Below are positions 10,749-64,000 of a stretch of DNA of 64,000 nucleotides, piece after piece. The stretch lies in NCBI RefSeq assembly GCF_000519265.1, contig NZ_KI912608.1:1990582-2054581 (forward strand), read 5' to 3'. Every line of letters starts with the position of its first letter. Positions within the stretch are counted from its first letter, which is position 1. Under the pieces are notes generated by a model. It was not told the origin of the DNA and did not search any database. It worked only from the letters and a program-made list of their open reading frames with translations. The position numbers and the translations under genes are program-made. This stretch comes from Desulfonatronum lacustre DSM 10312 (GTDB lineage: Bacteria > Desulfobacterota > Desulfovibrionia > Desulfovibrionales > Desulfonatronaceae).

Positions 10749-12572
<1,824 letters not shown>

Positions 12573-28221: not shown

Positions 28222-28345
28222 GAAGAGGAGGAGAAAGGGTTCAGGATGTGGGGCACGGGGAAAACTAAAACATTCATCCGTTCCGGGCAAGAAGAAACGT
28301 TGAGATGACGACAACCGGCCCAAGGCAACCTGTTCTCATCAAAAT

Positions 28346-28458
28346 CCAAATCGCAATCGAAATCGAAATCGGAAAATACTGTACATCACTACATGATTAC
28401 AGCATCTCTTGGACACGACGTTCGATTACGATCACGATTACGATTTCGATTTCGATAC
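28346..28458. repeat. Inverted arrays of a 6-bp repeat (AATCGA/TCGATT)
   Basis: A left arm of about four AATCGA-type units (28346-28372) faces a right arm of six TCGATT-type units (28421-28458) across about 50 bases. The RNA could fold into a long stem. It fills the gap between gspC and fliQ, and a similar pair occurs at 46276-46527. Confidence 0.8.
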
Positions 28459-35713: not shown

Positions 35714-35789
<76 letters not shown>

Positions 35790-46275: not shown

Positions 46276-46527
46276 CGAATCGAAATCCAAATCGAGATCG
46301 AAATCGTAATCGAACCATGACACACTTGAATGTATGCACAATTTGTCCGGGCAATCGAAGACCACAAAAAAAGACCTGGATTCCGGCCTTCGCCGGAATG
46401 ACTGATAACAGCAAGCCCTTCCCGCAAAGTCACCCGGCGCAGGCCGGGGTCCAGGCGAGTTCTCCGAGTGCTTGAGTAATTTCACTGAATTTCTCGATTT
46501 CGATCCCGATTTCGATTTCGATTTCGG
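46276..46527. repeat. Hexamer inverted arms enclosing paired REP-like palindromes
   Basis: The 395-base gap between gmhA and fmdB has an (AATCGA)n-type arm at 46276-46314 and an opposing (TCGATT)n-type arm at 46493-46527. Between them are two palindromes in opposite orientation: ATTCCGGC/GCCGGAAT with a CTTC loop (46380-46399), and a second reading ACCCCGGC on the other strand (about 46430-46452). No gene is visible in this gap. Confidence 0.8.
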
Positions 46528-56604: not shown

Positions 56605-56633
56605 TTGACATGGCGACCATGGAACCATATACG
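56605..56633 (+). promoter_or_regulatory. Likely sigma-70 promoter for the type I secretion operon
   Basis: TTGACA (56605-56610), a 17-bp spacer and TATACG (56628-56633), about 140 bases before the second tolC-like gene. The remainder of the 56543-56771 gap shows nothing else. Confidence 0.55.
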
Positions 56634-56771
56634 GAACCACTGGCGCCAAGATGCTCCGTTCCACCCTGACCAAAAATACTCTCGGGGCTTCATCGGCTCT
56701 TTCGACGCAAAACATTTCAAACGCTTACTGCAATGCATACCACCAAAGACCTGTCTCCAGAGGAATCCTTG

Positions 56772-58547
56772 ATGTCACGGAAATACTCGCCCTCCCTCCC
56801 AACACTTTCCAAGCAGGTTCTCTCCGGCCTGCTCGTCATTGCTCTCACGCTCCCGCCCCTGCCGATCCTGGCTCGAGAGGCCGAAGAGATTGAAAACAAC
56901 GCCCCGGACGCCACGAGCGCCCTGATTCTGGAAATGGAGGAATGCGTCCAGATCGGCCTGGTCCGCAATCCCCGCATCAAGGCCGCTGAATACGCCGTCC
57001 AACGGGCCGGTTCGGACGTCCATGCCGCTTTCGCCGATTTTCTGCCCCGGATTGACACCGGTTTTCAGGCTCGGAGGATGCGCCAAATGCGCTCCGGACT
57101 GCCGTCCACGGATACCGAAGAACAAGAAAACGGGGATTCCGCTGAAAGTGACGACAACGACCACTACGACGGCCCGGCTGAAGGCGAAGGCGCCAGGATG
57201 CTGGCCCGGGCCCTGGCCAAAAATAAAGACGACACCCCGCTCCCTGCGGACCCGGTCAATCCCACCCCCGTCTTCAACCCATTTGAAGAACTTCAGCAGC
57301 AACTCAATCAGATCAACGAGGGCTTGAATCAACAGAATCAAGCCCTGGCCGGCCTTGATGAGAATTTGAGCAACCTCGATGAAAACCTGGAGGAACTCAA
57401 CGTCAAGCTGGACGATCTCCAGGAGGCCCTGAACAAGCGCCCCCTGGACGCGGATTCCACCAGTTTCGACGAGACCGTCTGGTATGCGCGCATCAGCCAG
57501 CCCGTGTTCACCGGCTTCACCATCACCAACACCTACCTCCGTTCCCGGTTGACCCGGGAAATGACGGAAGCGGAGTTGGAATACGTTCGACTGGAGGTGG
57601 CTCGGGATATCCGCGTGGCCTTCCTGAACGTGCTCTGGGCCCAGGAGGACATGCGCAGCCTGGAAGCCCGAATCACCCGCCTGGAAGCCCAGCTTGAGGC
57701 GGCTGAAGCCTTCACGCGTCTCGGCATGAAGCCCTACCTGGATGTGCTGCAGGCCGAAGTGGATCTCAGCGAGGCCCGCCAGGATCACACCCAGGTGCTC
57801 AACGCCCAACGGGTGCACACGGCCCGTCTGCTGACCCTGATGGGCATGCCCTCGGAAACCCCCCTGGAGGTCGCCGGACGCCTGGAGTCCTTTCAGCCCG
57901 ACTTTTCCCTGACCTTGCATGAATGCTTGGCCGAGTCCCGCAACAATCGCCCGGACCTGTTCATCGCCCACAAGGCCGTGGAAGTGGCTGAAAAAGACGT
58001 TCATCTTGCCTGGGGCCGGTTCGCGCCCACGGCATCCGTGGATTTCGCCTACAATGTTCAGGACCGGAAATACCGGGACCGAGAAGTCGCCGAACGCTAC
58101 GACTACAGCGACCGCCAGTACTGGACCCTGGGCCTGAACGTCTCCATGAACCTGTTCGAAGGGGGCCGTTCACGGGCCATGGTCATGCGCGCACGCCATG
58201 AGCTGTTCCGGATTCGGGAGGATATGCTGCACCACGAGATGCAGGCCGCCTACGAAGTGGAGTCCGCGTACCTGGTCCTGCATGAAGCCCAACAGCGCAT
58301 CGATTCCACGGTCAAGGTCCGGGCCGCGGCCCAGGAAGCCTACGACATGGCCCTGGTCCGCTACCGCACCGAAATCGGCACCCAAACCGAACTCCTGGAC
58401 GCCCAGGAACGCCTGGCCCGCTCGGAAACCAATACCAATCAGGCCCGCGCCCAATACAACCGCGCCCGCGCCCAACTCTACTTCGCCATGGGCTGGCTCG
58501 AATCCCACCCAACCCCACAAACCCAACAAGCTCAACAAACCCAATAA
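56772..58547 (+). CDS. TolC-family protein with large extracellular-loop insertion
   Basis: 591 residues from the ATG at 56772, then a signal peptide (VLSGLLVIALTLPPLPILA). TolC features: LEMEECVQIGLVRNPRIKAAEY, WYARISQPVFTGF, FTRLGMKPYLDVLQAEVDLSEA, WTLGLNVSMNLFEGG, YRTEIGTQTELLDAQERLARSE. Between the first two beta strands (about residues 102-233) it carries an acidic segment and a coiled coil (QQQLNQINEGLNQQNQ, NLDENLEELNVKLDDLQEAL), absent from the other TolC-like protein here. By TolC topology this loop is outside the cell. The C-terminus (PTPQTQQAQQTQ) is encoded by the 9-bp repeat array. First gene of the type I secretion operon. Confidence 0.92.
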   Translation: MSRKYSPSLPTLSKQVLSGLLVIALTLPPLPILAREAEEIENNAPDATSALILEMEECVQIGLVRNPRIKAAEYAVQRAGSDVHAAFADFLPRIDTGFQARRMRQMRSGLPSTDTEEQENGDSAESDDNDHYDGPAEGEGARMLARALAKNKDDTPLPADPVNPTPVFNPFEELQQQLNQINEGLNQQNQALAGLDENLSNLDENLEELNVKLDDLQEALNKRPLDADSTSFDETVWYARISQPVFTGFTITNTYLRSRLTREMTEAELEYVRLEVARDIRVAFLNVLWAQEDMRSLEARITRLEAQLEAAEAFTRLGMKPYLDVLQAEVDLSEARQDHTQVLNAQRVHTARLLTLMGMPSETPLEVAGRLESFQPDFSLTLHECLAESRNNRPDLFIAHKAVEVAEKDVHLAWGRFAPTASVDFAYNVQDRKYRDREVAERYDYSDRQYWTLGLNVSMNLFEGGRSRAMVMRARHELFRIREDMLHHEMQAAYEVESAYLVLHEAQQRIDSTVKVRAAAQEAYDMALVRYRTEIGTQTELLDAQERLARSETNTNQARAQYNRARAQLYFAMGWLESHPTPQTQQAQQTQ

Positions 58548-58562
58548 ACCCAACAAACCCAA
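58516..58562. repeat. 9-bp array (CCCAACAAA type) at the tolC/hicB-like junction
   Basis: About five units of CCCAACAAA/CCCAATAAA run from the last codons of the tolC-like gene to the base before the next ATG. The stretch contains no G-rich ribosome site. Confidence 0.9.
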
Positions 58563-59051
58563 ATGCCTTCCACCTACTCCATAACCTTGCTCTGGGATGA
58601 ACAACGGGACGGATATATCGCCTACTGCCCTGAATTCCCCGAGTTGGAGGCCTTTTCTTCCTCCCCCGCAACCGCCGCCGCCGGGATTGAAGCCCAGATC
58701 CTGGCACGGCTCAACGAGATGCATGGCCGCGGAGCTCCTCCTCCTGCTCCGCGGCACTGCGTCCCGTTCAGCGGCCAGTTCCGGCTCCGCCTGCCCAAGA
58801 GCCTGCATGCCACCCTGTCTCGAGAAGCCGAGGACGAAGGCCTCTCCTTGAACGGCTACATCCAATACCTTCTGGCCGCCCGGCACGCCGCGACCATCGC
58901 GACCCAGCCAAACGCGACGCACCGGATCGACGACATCCAGGAAACCGTCCGCCTGATCCAGGACCGGGTCGACAGCCTGACCTTCACCCAGGAAGAACAC
59001 CCGAATTTCCTCTGGAACAACGAATCCGCCGCCACCATCTCGTTGCAATAG
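58563..59051 (+). CDS. HicB-like protein without HicA partner
   Basis: 162 residues. The N-terminal part is a HicB partial RNase H-like fold (YSITLLWDEQRDGYIAYCPE, FSSSPATAAAGIEAQI). FRLRLPKSLHATLSREAEDEG, LSLNGYIQYLLA form a ribbon-helix-helix DNA-binding domain. An additional C-terminal helix (DDIQETVRLIQDRVDSL) follows. HicB proteins normally neutralise HicA toxins; no hicA is present. Its place between a tolC-like and the ABC exporter genes suggests a regulator of this operon or its substrate, but that is inference. No Shine-Dalgarno is visible. Confidence 0.85.
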   Translation: MPSTYSITLLWDEQRDGYIAYCPEFPELEAFSSSPATAAAGIEAQILARLNEMHGRGAPPPAPRHCVPFSGQFRLRLPKSLHATLSREAEDEGLSLNGYIQYLLAARHAATIATQPNATHRIDDIQETVRLIQDRVDSLTFTQEEHPNFLWNNESAATISLQ

Positions 59052-59190
59052 GGTTTGTTGGGTTTGTGGAGTTTGTTAGGTTTGTGGAGCTAAATAAAAT
59101 TTCCTAACCAACCAAAACAACCCAATAAACCCAACAAACCCAATACAACCCAACAAACCCCAAAAACCCAACAAACCCAAAAAAACCAAA
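59051..59190. repeat. Inverted 9-bp arrays able to form a long hairpin
   Basis: GGGTTTGTT-type units (59051-59089) face CCCAACAAA-type units (59107-59187) across about 17 bases of AT-rich sequence. The RNA stem could exceed 30 bp. The second arm ends at the ATG of the next gene, again without a ribosome site. Confidence 0.88.
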
Positions 59191-59619
59191 ATGATTCGCC
59201 TAATCTGGTCCGTCCTTTGCCGAGAAATCCTCACCGACCGGGAAACCAATTCCGTGAGCTACATCCATAGCATAGAGGAGGGGGCCGCCACGGTTCTGCC
59301 CACCCGCATCGCGCCCGTGAGCCTGGGAACGCTCTGGGAAATGGACGGCACGCAGCCGGAGCCCTTCGCCGCCCGGATCACGCTCGGCACCCCCTCGGGC
59401 CAGGAGATCGGCATGCTCCAGACCGGCCGGTTGACCTTCACCAACCCCAGGCACCGCCTCCATTTTCGCCTTCAAGGCCTGCCCATGACCGAGTTCGGCC
59501 GCCACGAAATCCGTCTGGATTTCACCAAAGACAACCAATGGCAACGCGCCGCGACCATGCCCTTCGTCCTGCGCCGCCTCATACTCCCCCCAACCCCAAA
59601 AACCCCACCAACCCCATAA
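59191..59619 (+). CDS. Unknown small protein of the type I secretion operon
   Basis: 142 residues, no signal peptide or membrane helix. LCREILTDRETNSVSYIHSIEEG and ARITLGTPSGQEIGML, then FRLQGLPMTEFGRHEIRLDF suggest a beta-sandwich (C2-like) fold; similar small proteins of unknown function exist in bacteria, but I do not recognise a named family. The last ten residues (LPPTPKTPPTP) are encoded by the next 9-bp array. Lies between the HicB-like and exporter genes, so probably part of the operon. Confidence 0.72.
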   Translation: MIRLIWSVLCREILTDRETNSVSYIHSIEEGAATVLPTRIAPVSLGTLWEMDGTQPEPFAARITLGTPSGQEIGMLQTGRLTFTNPRHRLHFRLQGLPMTEFGRHEIRLDFTKDNQWQRAATMPFVLRRLILPPTPKTPPTP

Positions 59620-59634
59620 ACCCAACAAACCCAA
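59585..59634. repeat. 9-bp array before the first ABC exporter gene
   Basis: About five CCCAACAAA-like units extend from the last codons of the unknown gene to the ATG at 59635. As at the two previous junctions, no Shine-Dalgarno is present. Confidence 0.88.
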
Positions 59635-61362
59635 ATGTCTTACCCAGCCACCATCTCCACCCAAACCGTCCACCCGCTCAGCGCGACCAGCAAACCGGCC
59701 GGCATGGACCCGGTCACGGCCAAGCTCCGCGCCCTGACCCGTCACGTTTTCGGCCGCACCCTGCTTTTCAGCTTCGTGGCCGGGGTCCTGCGCCTGGCCG
59801 TGCCCATGAACATGCTGGCCATGTACAGCATCGTCATTCCCAGCCAGGACCCTCTCAACGCCTACGTCATCACCGGCGCGGCCCTGGGGGCGCTTTTGGC
59901 CATGGGGCTGCTGGAACTGGTCCGCTCCAGGTTGATGGTCCGATACGGAGTGGCGGTGCAGCGCGACCTGTCCGACACGGTGCTTTCCGGAATGCTCCGG
60001 GACTCCGCGGAAATGCATTCCCAGGGTTTTTCGGAGGCCATGGGCAACCTGCAAAAGGTGCGCAACTTCGTCAGTTCGCCGGCTGTGTTCGCGCTGTTCG
60101 ACTGCCTGCTCGCCCCGTTTCTGCTGCTCATCGTCTTTCTGATCCACCCGATTATGGGCCTGACGGCCCTGGTTTCCATCGGCTGCGTCGTCCTGCTGGC
60201 CTGGAGAATGGAAAAAGGCTCCAAGGCCCCCTTGAAGCAGGCCAATGTCCTGGCCGGCAAGAACAACTCTTTTTTGCAGGAATGTCTGCGCGGCAAGGCC
60301 GCCATCCAGGCCATGGGCATGACCGACGCGGTTTCCGGCCTCTGGCGCCGGGATCAGGACAAAGTCCTGGCCCTGCAGTCCGGGGCCAGCGATCAGGCCG
60401 GCCGGCTTTCGGCCATGTCCAAGCTGGTGACCATGGGCAACACCGTCGTCTTATTCGGCATCGGCGCCCATCTGGTGATCAATTCGCCCATGGGCGCGGG
60501 CAACGTTCTGATGGCCGTGATCATTGCCGGACAGGCCATCATGCCCCTGCACCAGGCCATGGCCAACTGGACCAATCTCCAGGAAGCCCGCCAGGCTTAC
60601 GGCAACCTGAAGGACCTGCTGGCCGGGTCCGCCGAGCAGGCCGAGCGCATGGAACTGCCTCCGCCCAAGGGCGCCCTGGCCCTGGAACAACTGGTCTTCG
60701 CCCTTCCCGGACAGGCGATTCTGCGCGGCGTATCCCTTTCCCTGGAGCCCGGTGAATTCCTGGGCGTGATCGGCCCCATGGCCGCGGGCAAGACCACCCT
60801 GGCCCGCCTGCTGACCGGGGTGGTCAGGCCCACCTCCGGAACCATTCGCCTGGACGGCGCGGACATGTACAACTGGGACCAGACCCGCCTGGGAAAATTT
60901 CTGGGATATCTGCCCCAGGAAGTTGAACTGTTCCCCGGGACCATCAGCGAGAACATCGCCCGGATGGCCGAGCCGGCCCCCGAATTCCTGGACCGGGCCG
61001 CGGCCATGTCCGGGCTGGACTCGGCCCTGGCCGGGCAGCCCGACGGGTTGGACACCCTGATCGCCGAAGGCGGGGCCAACCTGCCCGGTGGTCTGCGCCA
61101 ACGCATCGGCCTGGCCCGTGCTCTGTACGGCAACCCGCGGCTGGTCATCCTGGACGAACCCGACGCCAATCTTGATCAAGCCGGCCGCGACGCCCTGCTG
61201 GCCGCCCTGGCCGAACTCAAGCGCCGCCAGGTCACCGTGGTCATGGTCACCCACCGCGTCTCCCTGATCACCCGCTCCGACAAACTCCTGGTCCTCCAAC
61301 AAGGCGTCCCGGTCCAATACGGCCCCACGTCCGATGTCCTGTCCAAACTTCAAAACAAATAG
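59635..61362 (+). CDS. Type I secretion ABC exporter, PrtD-like (first of two)
   Basis: 575 residues. Six membrane helices in the first 330 (LLFSFVAGVLRLAVPMNMLAMY; LFDCLLAPFLLLIVFLIHPIMGL), no peptidase or C39-like domain. Nucleotide-binding domain: Walker A GPMAAGKTT, Q-loop YLPQEVELF, signature LPGGLRQR (degenerate LSGGQ), Walker B LVILDEPDANLD, switch His in VMVTHR. This is the PrtD subgroup exporting RTX-type proteases or adhesins. An ABC paralogue and an HlyD adaptor follow, and a TolC-like gene lies upstream, making a full tripartite system. No RTX substrate is in the window. Confidence 0.93.
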   Translation: MSYPATISTQTVHPLSATSKPAGMDPVTAKLRALTRHVFGRTLLFSFVAGVLRLAVPMNMLAMYSIVIPSQDPLNAYVITGAALGALLAMGLLELVRSRLMVRYGVAVQRDLSDTVLSGMLRDSAEMHSQGFSEAMGNLQKVRNFVSSPAVFALFDCLLAPFLLLIVFLIHPIMGLTALVSIGCVVLLAWRMEKGSKAPLKQANVLAGKNNSFLQECLRGKAAIQAMGMTDAVSGLWRRDQDKVLALQSGASDQAGRLSAMSKLVTMGNTVVLFGIGAHLVINSPMGAGNVLMAVIIAGQAIMPLHQAMANWTNLQEARQAYGNLKDLLAGSAEQAERMELPPPKGALALEQLVFALPGQAILRGVSLSLEPGEFLGVIGPMAAGKTTLARLLTGVVRPTSGTIRLDGADMYNWDQTRLGKFLGYLPQEVELFPGTISENIARMAEPAPEFLDRAAAMSGLDSALAGQPDGLDTLIAEGGANLPGGLRQRIGLARALYGNPRLVILDEPDANLDQAGRDALLAALAELKRRQVTVVMVTHRVSLITRSDKLLVLQQGVPVQYGPTSDVLSKLQNK

Positions 61363-61434
61363 TCCGGTAAGCCTTGGACCAAAATCCTGTCACAACCGTT
61401 GAACCGTGAACCACTGAACCGAGAAACCAATAAA

Positions 61435-63111
61435 ATGTTCCGCTTCATCCCCAAATCCCTCATCCCCATCTACGCTACGGCCTTTTTTTTCAGCCTGTTC
61501 ATCAACGTGCTCAGTTTGGCCGTGCCGTTGCACATGCTGCAAATCTTCGACCGGGTGCTCACCGGGCGCAGCGAGGCCACGTTGATCTTCGTGACCATGG
61601 CGGCCCTGCTGGCCTTGACGATCATGGGCGTTCTGGAGGGGCTGCGCTCCCGGCTTCTGGTTCGGCTGGGCAACCGGGTGGACCAGCGCATGGGCGATCC
61701 CGTAATCAAGGCCATGTTCACGCCCAAGGGGCTGCCCGGAACGCCGAGCTACGAACGCGGCGCCGCGGACCTGAACGCGGTGAAGGCGTTTCTCGGCGGC
61801 ACCGGCATTTTCGCTTTTTTCGACCTGCCCTGGCTGCCCATCTATCTGGCCGTGACCTTCATGCTCCATCCGGTGATCGGCATGGTTTCCACGGTCGGGG
61901 CCGTGGTGCTGTTCCTGCTGTTGTTCGTCAACGAGTCCCTGACCCGCAAGGCGGCCCGCGAAGCAGCCGAGTCCTCCTCCCAGGCCGCGACCATCCTCCG
62001 CACGGCCCAGCGCAACGTCCATGCCGTGTACGCCATGGGCATGCTCCCGGACATCGTGGCCCGGTGGCAGCGCAACGGGGGCCGCGACCTGGCCATGGAA
62101 ACCCGGGTCCACAACCGGACCGGCCTCAGCTCAGCCATGACCAAAACCCTGCGCATGGGCCTGCAGGCCATTATTCTCAGCGTGGGCGCGGTGCTGGTGA
62201 TCGCCAACGAGATTACCGCCGGGGTGATGATCGTGGGGTCGATCATGATGGGCAAGGCCCTCCAGCCCCTGGACCTAATCCTGGCCGGCTGGCGGCAGTT
62301 TCAGGAAGCCCGCCTGGCCGCGGGGCGCTTGAACCTGGCCGTGCCAAGTTCCGACCGCTCTTCGGCTTCCGACCGGCTCCGGCCACGGCAAACCCTGGAA
62401 CTGCCCTCGGGCTCGGCCGCCCCGGTTCCCACGCCCCACCCAGGGCTGCTCGTCCGTGACCTGAACCTCCGGCTCCACGATCGCCCGATCCTCACCAACG
62501 TCTCCCTGGACCTGCCTCCCGGCCGGATCATGGCCCTGGTCGGCCCCAGCGGTGCGGGAAAGACCACGCTGGCCGGCACCCTGGTCGGCCTGTACGCCCC
62601 GGAATCCGGAGAACTGCGTCTCGACGGTCACGACCTGACCACCCTGGACGAGGCGTCAAGATCCTCGCTCATCGGCTATCTTCCCCAGGACGTGGAGCTG
62701 CTCCCGGCCACGGTGGGCCAGAACATCGGCCGGATGAGCGACGAAGACGCCCAAGGCATCGTCACCGCGGCCCAGGCCGCCGGGGCGCACGAATTGATTC
62801 TCCGCCTTCCCCGGGGCTACGACACCCCGGTCGCGCCACGGGCCGCCAACCTCTCAGCCGGGCAGCGCCAGCGCATCGCCCTGGCCCGCGCCCTCTACGG
62901 CCACCCGCGGCTGCTGGTCCTGGACGAACCCGACGCCAACCTGGACGACGAAGGCCGCCAGGCCCTGGCCAGGGCCATCGCCGCGGCCCGAAGCAACGGC
63001 AACCTCATCCTGCTCATCTCCCACCGCCCCTGGATCCTCAAAATGGCCGACGCCGTGATCCAACTTGAAGAGGGAAAGGTAATAACCCAACAATCTCCAC
63101 AAACCCCATAA
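61435..63111 (+). CDS. Type I secretion ABC exporter, PrtD-like (second of two)
   Basis: 558 residues from the ATG at 61435. Six membrane helices (FFFSLFINVLSLAVPLHMLQIFDRVL is the PrtD start), no peptidase domain. NBD motifs: Walker A GPSGAGKTT, Q-loop YLPQDVELL, signature LSAGQRQR, Walker B LLVLDEPDANLD, His in LLISHR. It is a paralogue of the preceding exporter. The two may form a heterodimer, the first having the weaker signature motif. Its C-terminal ITQQSPQTP again runs into 9-bp repeat-like sequence. Confidence 0.93.
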   Translation: MFRFIPKSLIPIYATAFFFSLFINVLSLAVPLHMLQIFDRVLTGRSEATLIFVTMAALLALTIMGVLEGLRSRLLVRLGNRVDQRMGDPVIKAMFTPKGLPGTPSYERGAADLNAVKAFLGGTGIFAFFDLPWLPIYLAVTFMLHPVIGMVSTVGAVVLFLLLFVNESLTRKAAREAAESSSQAATILRTAQRNVHAVYAMGMLPDIVARWQRNGGRDLAMETRVHNRTGLSSAMTKTLRMGLQAIILSVGAVLVIANEITAGVMIVGSIMMGKALQPLDLILAGWRQFQEARLAAGRLNLAVPSSDRSSASDRLRPRQTLELPSGSAAPVPTPHPGLLVRDLNLRLHDRPILTNVSLDLPPGRIMALVGPSGAGKTTLAGTLVGLYAPESGELRLDGHDLTTLDEASRSSLIGYLPQDVELLPATVGQNIGRMSDEDAQGIVTAAQAAGAHELILRLPRGYDTPVAPRAANLSAGQRQRIALARALYGHPRLLVLDEPDANLDDEGRQALARAIAAARSNGNLILLISHRPWILKMADAVIQLEEGKVITQQSPQTP

Positions 63112-63118
63112 ACTCATC

Positions 63119-64000
63119 ATGAAAAACCAACTTTCACTCCCCACTGCGTCGAAACCCCATACCGAACCAACGGCCCCTTCCGACAACACCCGACCGATCA
63201 TCATCGCCGGGCTGCTGATCATTCTGCTCTTTTTCGGAGGGCTGGGCGCCTGGGCGGCCATGGCCACCATCAGCGCGGCGGTCATCGCCCAGGGCGAGGT
63301 CAAGGTGGATTCCAACCGCCGCACCGTTCAGCACCTGGAGGGCGGCATCGTCCGGGAAATTCTGGTCCGTGACGGCGATCGGGTCAGCCGCGGGCAGGTT
63401 TTGATTCGCCTCGAGGCCGAGCAGGTCAGCGCGGCCTACGATCTCCAGCAGGGCCAACGCGACCATCTCCTGGCCGTCAAGGCCCGTCTGGAAGCCGAGC
63501 GGGATCGCGCCGAGCGCGTATCCTGGCCCCCGGAACTGCTGGAGCGCCGGGACGAGTCCAACGTGTCCGCCACCATGGAAGGGGAAAACAAGATCTTTCA
63601 GGCCCGCCGCTCCGCCCTGCAAAACCAGACCGGACTGCTGCATACCCAGATCGAGCAGTTGCAAATCTTCATTCGCAGCCTGGACGAACAGGCCGTGGCC
63701 GTGGACCGGATCATCGCCTCCCTGGTCGACGAGATCGACTCCAAGACCATTCTCATGGAAGGCCGCTACCTGGAAAAATCACATATCATGGAGTTGACCA
63801 GAACGTTGGACGGCCATCGCGCCCGCCAGGAACAGCTCATCGGCGAACGGGCCCAGACCCGGGAGCGCATCGCCGAATTGCGGCTGCGCATCCAGGATCT
63901 GAACACCCAGTACATGCAGGAGGCCGTGACCAAACTCGGCGAAACCCAGAACGCCCTGTTCGAGTTGGAGGACCGTCGACGGCCCACCGTGGACCAGGCC
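63119..64000 (+). CDS. HlyD/PrtE-family membrane fusion protein, 3' end outside the window
   Basis: 294 codons from the ATG at 63119 to the right edge, no stop. A membrane helix (about 25-48, PIIIAGLLIILLFFGGLGAW) is followed by the HlyD lipoyl half (AQGEVKVDSNRRTVQHLEGG, then GIVREILVRDGDRVSRGQVLIRL) and a long coiled coil. It bridges the ABC exporter and the TolC-like channel. It belongs to the same operon, seven bases after the second exporter. Confidence 0.93.
   Translation, partial: MKNQLSLPTASKPHTEPTAPSDNTRPIIIAGLLIILLFFGGLGAWAAMATISAAVIAQGEVKVDSNRRTVQHLEGGIVREILVRDGDRVSRGQVLIRLEAEQVSAAYDLQQGQRDHLLAVKARLEAERDRAERVSWPPELLERRDESNVSATMEGENKIFQARRSALQNQTGLLHTQIEQLQIFIRSLDEQAVAVDRIIASLVDEIDSKTILMEGRYLEKSHIMELTRTLDGHRARQEQLIGERAQTRERIAELRLRIQDLNTQYMQEAVTKLGETQNALFELEDRRRPTVDQA

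Follow-up and report, generated by a model that had tools for sequence, protein, structure and literature searches.

Before at least five genes of a type I secretion system (T1SS) operon in the Desulfovibrionales genome considered here (G000), the Shine-Dalgarno (SD) site is replaced by a 9-base repeat. The window, that is, the whole stretch of 64,000 nucleotides that was analysed, belongs to a genome of 3.76 Mb in a single contig. The repeats were detected with Tandem Repeats Finder and form CCCAACAAA-type arrays, whose 9-bp unit occurs with variants, contains no G and is rich in C and A. These arrays stop 0-4 nt short of the start codons of the hicB-like, small, ABC1 and subtilase genes, and a degenerate, weaker version is found at the hlyD start. 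With moderate confidence, we attribute this organization to slippage-expanded arrays that overwrote the SD sites and persist as open, SD-free, ACA-rich leaders, with translational coupling assisting at the tight junctions.

Array placement in the operon and in the genome

The operon runs in the order tolC, hicB-like gene, small gene, ABC1, ABC2, hlyD and subtilase, all operon features located below lying on the plus strand; the subtilase gene, whose product has a weak RTX-repeat match, and a gene for a 92-aa protein lie beyond the window. As in PrtD/HlyD/TolC systems, an ABC transporter, a HlyD adaptor and a TolC channel are encoded in one operon. TIGR01842 exceeded its cut-off in both ABC genes, and TIGR01843 and TIGR01844 scored below theirs, HlyD being truncated at the window end. 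Upstream of tolC, a promoter with a palindromic operator is predicted at 56605-56638, where TTGACA-N17-TATACG overlaps GGAACCATATACGGAACC. This element is the sole match in the whole genome with up to one mismatch allowed; it is kept before tolC in the related genomes G003 and G001 and before hicB in G001, and variants occur near hicB in G021 and G041. The palindrome may possibly be the operator of the HicB-like protein. The first gene, tolC, which encodes a TolC-type outer membrane channel (56772-58547; PF02321), has an ordinary SD, AGAGGAATCCTTG (-6.0 kcal/mol), if its start is 56772; this start is the likely one, and the same start is found in G003.

Array 1 (58511-58562, 5.8 units) covers the tolC stop codon (58545-58547) and abuts the ATG of the gene for a HicB-family (ribbon-helix-helix) protein (58563-59051; PF05534, 3e-11), the start of which is common to the outgroup G021, where it has an SD. 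Directly at the hicB stop codon lies an inverted partner arm, (GGGTTTGTT)n (59051-59089), followed by array 2 (59112 to about 59190, ~8.7 units; 59112-59191 in the repeat-finder output), which abuts the ATG of the small gene (59191-59619). The latter encodes a small conserved protein that belongs to no named family, with no Pfam or NCBIfam match and a dN/dS of ~0.2. Its relatives also occur in four outgroups, adjoining T1SS genes or a hicB-like gene; none was found among named genome contigs. Array 3 (59586 to about 59634, ~5 units; 59586-59632 in the same output) covers the small-gene stop codon (59617-59619) and abuts the ATG of ABC1 (59635-61362), which encodes a PrtD-type T1SS ABC transporter (TIGR01842, 524.9 bits, above cut-off). 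The second PrtD-type transporter gene, ABC2 (61435-63111; TIGR01842, 551 bits), is preceded by a different repeat in G000 (AACCGTTGAACCGTGAACC..., 61394-61434) and in G003, and by a CCCAACAAA array at that place in G001. Finally, the degenerate array 4 (63086-63118), in line with the weaker repeat that the preliminary description had reported at this junction, covers the ABC2 stop codon (63109-63111) and precedes the gene for the HlyD-type adaptor (63119-64000; TIGR01843), which passes the window end (full ORF, L009:13701-15056).

Three genes, tolC, the small gene and ABC2, terminate within an array, their TAA being provided by CCCAATAAA-type units. The claim that the arrays also encode the ends of the upstream proteins holds for TolC (...QQAQQTQ) and the small protein (...KTPPTP) and fails for the array between hicB and the small gene, which is non-coding and located in a 139-nt gap. 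The phenomenon is larger than first noted, as the subtilase and 92-aa genes beyond the window likewise bear arrays; at the latter gene, the array is followed by GGAG and then by the ATG.

A genome-wide search in G000 located this array family only at C1:2049083-2070903, a region of 22 kb. The only other long G-free 9-mer array of the genome, (AACCCATTC)n, is built from a different unit; with 9.9 copies at L147 5833-5921, it fills the gap before an rmlA-like nucleotidyltransferase gene that has a strong SD, GGGAGGAATC. Across three genomes, eight of the nine distinct array sites have a start codon at most 12 nt downstream, and the search thereby bore out the overwhelming association of the arrays with starts. 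Under a simple placement null in which sites are taken as independent, this placement has P ~1e-17, and chance is therefore excluded. One array copy is found in a coding region (L010:10864-10906), within an FkbM-like ORF, where it encodes PNKPHKPNKPKEPK; start-site function is therefore not the sole reason for array persistence. This copy and the numerous other tandem arrays in gaps of the genome would suit near-neutral slippage products that spread in the locus and were tolerated as the 9-bp unit keeps the reading frame, with coupling or a low basal level of initiation as the only basis of translation. We regard such an origin as possible, with a rather limited likelihood, and the orientation and position of the arrays, which are strongly non-random, speak against it.

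Other repeats were also observed. The large TPR/FkbM-like ORF of L010 carries, besides its in-frame 9-bp array, an AGGTC pentamer array (12488-12545) near its 3' end. Paired inverted hexamers, (ATCGAA)n ... (TTCGAT)n, ~15-180 bp apart, occur in the window at 28338-28456 and 46278-46526, and dozens of such pairs are present in a 736-kb genome sample, often near gene 3' ends. At 35714-35789 of the window, (ACTCCTG) x 10.9 corresponds on the minus strand to (CAGGAGT)n, every unit of which contains an SD-like GGAG, and is located ~20 nt upstream of a minus-strand gene start.

Absence of SD sites and comparison with relatives

Pairing with the anti-SD was compared with a background of 506 genes from the 736-kb sample, obtained by SD-blind automatic gene calls. 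Start sites are predicted ones, and a standard anti-SD was assumed in all pairing energies because the 16S 3' end was not found in the genome copy used. The five array-led operon starts gave +1.6 to +2.4 kcal/mol versus a genome median of -5.6 kcal/mol. The original observation, that 9-bp arrays stand in place of SD sites at 58563, 59191 and 59635, was confirmed, with energies of +1.6, +2.2 and +1.6 kcal/mol, respectively; starts equally weak make up 1.4-2.8% of the 506 sampled genes. It was further verified that G-free leaders are unusual in this genome, as 30-nt leaders without G were found in five of eight operon genes versus two of ~503 others (Fisher p ~4e-9, genes taken as independent). 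The statement that most starts have GGAG proved too strong: an SD match of 4 bases is present in 47% of the sampled genes, and the pairing energy is -4 kcal/mol or lower in 63%.

Misannotation of the starts was ruled out on three grounds. The starts of the hicB-like and small genes are common to outgroups and are therefore not misannotated; differences within the first 23 ABC1 codons fall mainly at third positions, favouring the start at 59635; and the other in-frame starts checked for the hicB-like, ABC1 and hlyD genes include none with a good SD. Internal promoters were also sought, and no sigma-70 promoter was found inside the arrays; the single weak promoter-like match, at 59073-59100 in the hicB/small-gene gap, is about what the chance rate provides. 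The array-bearing starts that keep an SD are those of the subtilase gene in G003 and the 92-aa gene in G000.

Three of the eight same-genus genomes (G000, G001 and G003) have the small gene and the arrays, and the other five have neither. G001 and G003 carry arrays at the same junctions as G000 with different copy numbers (the tolC/hicB array differs by 27 bp, that is, by whole units, between G000 and G003), and two G001 contigs terminate in arrays. In these three genomes, 16 array-led starts gave +0.2 to +2.4 kcal/mol, whereas 12 orthologous starts in another family (G021, G025, G033 and G041) are SD-like, at -2.9 to -11.9 kcal/mol, the two ranges being non-overlapping and the outgroup numbers small. 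Since the outgroup orthologues have SD-like sites, the most simple interpretation is that the arrays replaced SD sites within the genus. The SD-less genes have dN/dS values of ~0.1-0.3 when G000, G003 and G001 are compared, and this purifying selection indicates that they are translated and used. The array-encoded C-terminal tails vary between species while the protein cores are conserved, so that a function residing in the tails was ruled out and the peptide is not the selected feature.

In G001 and G003, arrays occur at the T1SS locus and also at an HMA_2 gene unrelated to the operon, where the array stands directly before the ATG, with ~5 units in G001 and ~15 in G003. At the HMA_2 start of G000 and G005, an (AACCAAG)n-like A/C-rich repeat is found instead, and G004 has an SD. 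Near-neutral slippage would be compatible with the differences in array-encoded tails and with the shifts of copy number by whole units. On the other hand, it leaves aside the occurrence of a different A/C-rich unit at the same start in other species, and the 139-nt and 185-nt gaps, as well as the HMA gene, are poorly suited to the simple coupling on which it would depend. Because copy number at each junction differs across species, it could also be supposed that its changes adjust the proportions of the secretion subunits or make them phase-variable. This is very improbable: 9-bp units keep the frame and so offer no on/off switch, leaders of all lengths are equally SD-less, copy number varies freely across species, and the subtilase start is predicted to be hairpin-hidden in the long transcript.

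In a metagenome-assembled genome of another family (G022), similar arrays occur before nusB, which lacks an SD and starts directly after the array, before dxr, which has a weak site, and before ftsZ, which has an SD. G033 and a second GEM2.Bin26 contig show a comparable layout in their T1SS loci, built from other units: the stop codon is followed by a G-rich repeat, and the next start is preceded by a C/A-rich one. In G033 (L056 9690-10740 and 12280-12700), the T1SS gaps are filled by repeats, which are of the GTATGGGAG type behind a stop codon and of the CATACTCCC type ahead of the following start; a small ORF lies nested in the interval from ABC1 to ABC2.

Leader structure and initiation of translation

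In a context of 150 nt, the predicted unpaired probability of the leaders is 0.77-0.99 versus a median of 0.43, and the minimum free energies of the local folds of the ABC1 (0.0) and hlyD (-0.9) leaders, versus a median of -15.1, place them among the least structured of the genome. Predicted structure around the AUG is low at most junctions in these local folds. When the context is lengthened to 250 nt, however, the subtilase start of G000 and the hicB start of G001 are predicted to be closed, hidden by a hairpin between inverted arms (unpaired probability of 0.12).

The events that we favour would thus begin with the expansion of 9-bp arrays, presumably by slippage, which would have overwritten the ancestral SD sites of successive operon genes. 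The array RNA would form a long, G-free, ACA-rich, unfolded leader on which the ribosome could start without an SD, with ribosomal protein S1 and the accessibility of the AUG as the most likely means; a full-length S1 is encoded in the genome. It has been described that ACA motifs enhance initiation (PMC3879156), that an ACAA repeat promotes SD-less initiation, as reported in work cited there (PMC3879156), and that E. coli can initiate without an SD where structure is locally lacking (PMC3121790). At the tight junctions, where stop and start are 15, 15 and 7 nt apart, reinitiation by the ribosome that has finished the upstream gene would probably contribute. The preliminary description had offered alternative initiation, coupling and unstructured leaders together. 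The lack of SD sites is supported, as is, at most junctions in predicted local folds, an unusually unstructured leader. Coupling may plausibly operate across gaps of 15 and 7 nt but gives no simple account of the 139-nt and 185-nt gaps. The main difficulty for an open leader lies in the subtilase start of G000 and the hicB start of G001, which the folding model hides, unless the transcript has its origin between the two arms or the hairpin is opened in some other way. In G001, a promoter/operator-like site is located between the arms, before hicB, and would give rise to a transcript with an open hicB leader.

The arms themselves may be given a more active role. The reverse-complement arm, which is G/T-rich, starts at the stop codon at both the hicB/small-gene and the hlyD/subtilase junctions, its C/A-rich partner standing ahead of the following gene, where the predicted hairpins are strong (z of -5.1 and -5.8, respectively). 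The arms could form a regulatory hairpin that would hide the start in a read-through transcript and expose it either in a transcript initiated within the loop or when a ribosome reaches the end of the upstream gene; the site between the arms of G001 would fit such a device. We judge this unlikely, considering that arms are present at only some junctions, that such z-scores come from any inverted array pair and that the predicted hicB/small-gene fold leaves the AUG and the array end next to it mostly open. A wider proposal, to which we likewise assign a low probability, is that A/C-rich arrays are selected, renewable SD-free ribosome-entry sites in Desulfovibrionales, whose units arise independently at the same starts and replace SD sites, and in which hairpins formed by the G-rich arms gate the next gene.

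Relation to known repeats and significance

The closest resemblance was found to the TAACTGA heptamer direct repeats of marine Beggiatoaceae, for which S1 was proposed as the binder (MacGregor 2015, PMC4679880). Those repeats form forward tandem arrays a few nucleotides before starts, over the expected SD place and mostly without an SD; some overlap the ends of upstream ORFs, and their copy numbers differ by whole units between relatives (PMC4679880). In the present case, a forward tandem unit also stands a few nucleotides before the starts of the hicB-like gene, the small gene, ABC1, the subtilase gene and the HMA gene of the relatives, and no SD lies between repeat and start at 16 starts, the exceptions being the 92-aa gene and the subtilase gene of G003. 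The TAACTGA unit has 7 bp and occupies ~170 dispersed places in one genome (PMC4679880), whereas the unit here is CCCAACAAA and its variants, 9 bp long and G-free, and is not dispersed over many genes: it is restricted to one operon region and, in relatives, one further gene. Inverted arms accompany it, and the outgroups bear SD-like sites.

The GGGNATC/GGGGAYT quadruplex repeats of Xanthomonas and Nostoc (Rehm 2015, PMC4692102) obey the same orientation rule, in which the sense strand is G-rich just behind stop codons and the antisense strand just ahead of starts; they have 7-bp units distributed genome-wide, and SD loss is not among their described features (PMC4692102). This shared orientation could point to an action at the DNA level, where GGG tracts on the template strand would give rise to G-quadruplexes or serve as recombination sites, a role suggested for the GGGNATC repeats. 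Such an action is improbable here, since some arrays, as that of hlyD, are too degenerate to hold four GGG tracts, and the A/C-rich substitutes at the HMA gene, which have no GGG on the opposite strand, would be left unexplained. ACA enhancers and SD-independent leaders (PMC3879156, PMC3121790) resemble the present arrays in being CA/ACA-rich and unstructured upstream of the AUG; those elements are short, mostly accompanied by an SD and tested in enterobacteria, whereas the present ones are natural tandem arrays known from sequence. A literature search on the order Desulfovibrionales returned nothing relevant.

Start-site repeats of this kind are already known but poorly understood, and the CCCAACAAA arrays are a local, well-documented case. 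They constitute a natural experiment, in which the same starts have SD sites in outgroups and a repeat leader in one genus, with the genes under purifying selection. The case illustrates how slippage arrays can rewrite translation signals one gene at a time within an operon, and through it the role of start-site repeats, as well as the extent to which bacteria can forgo SD pairing, become directly testable.
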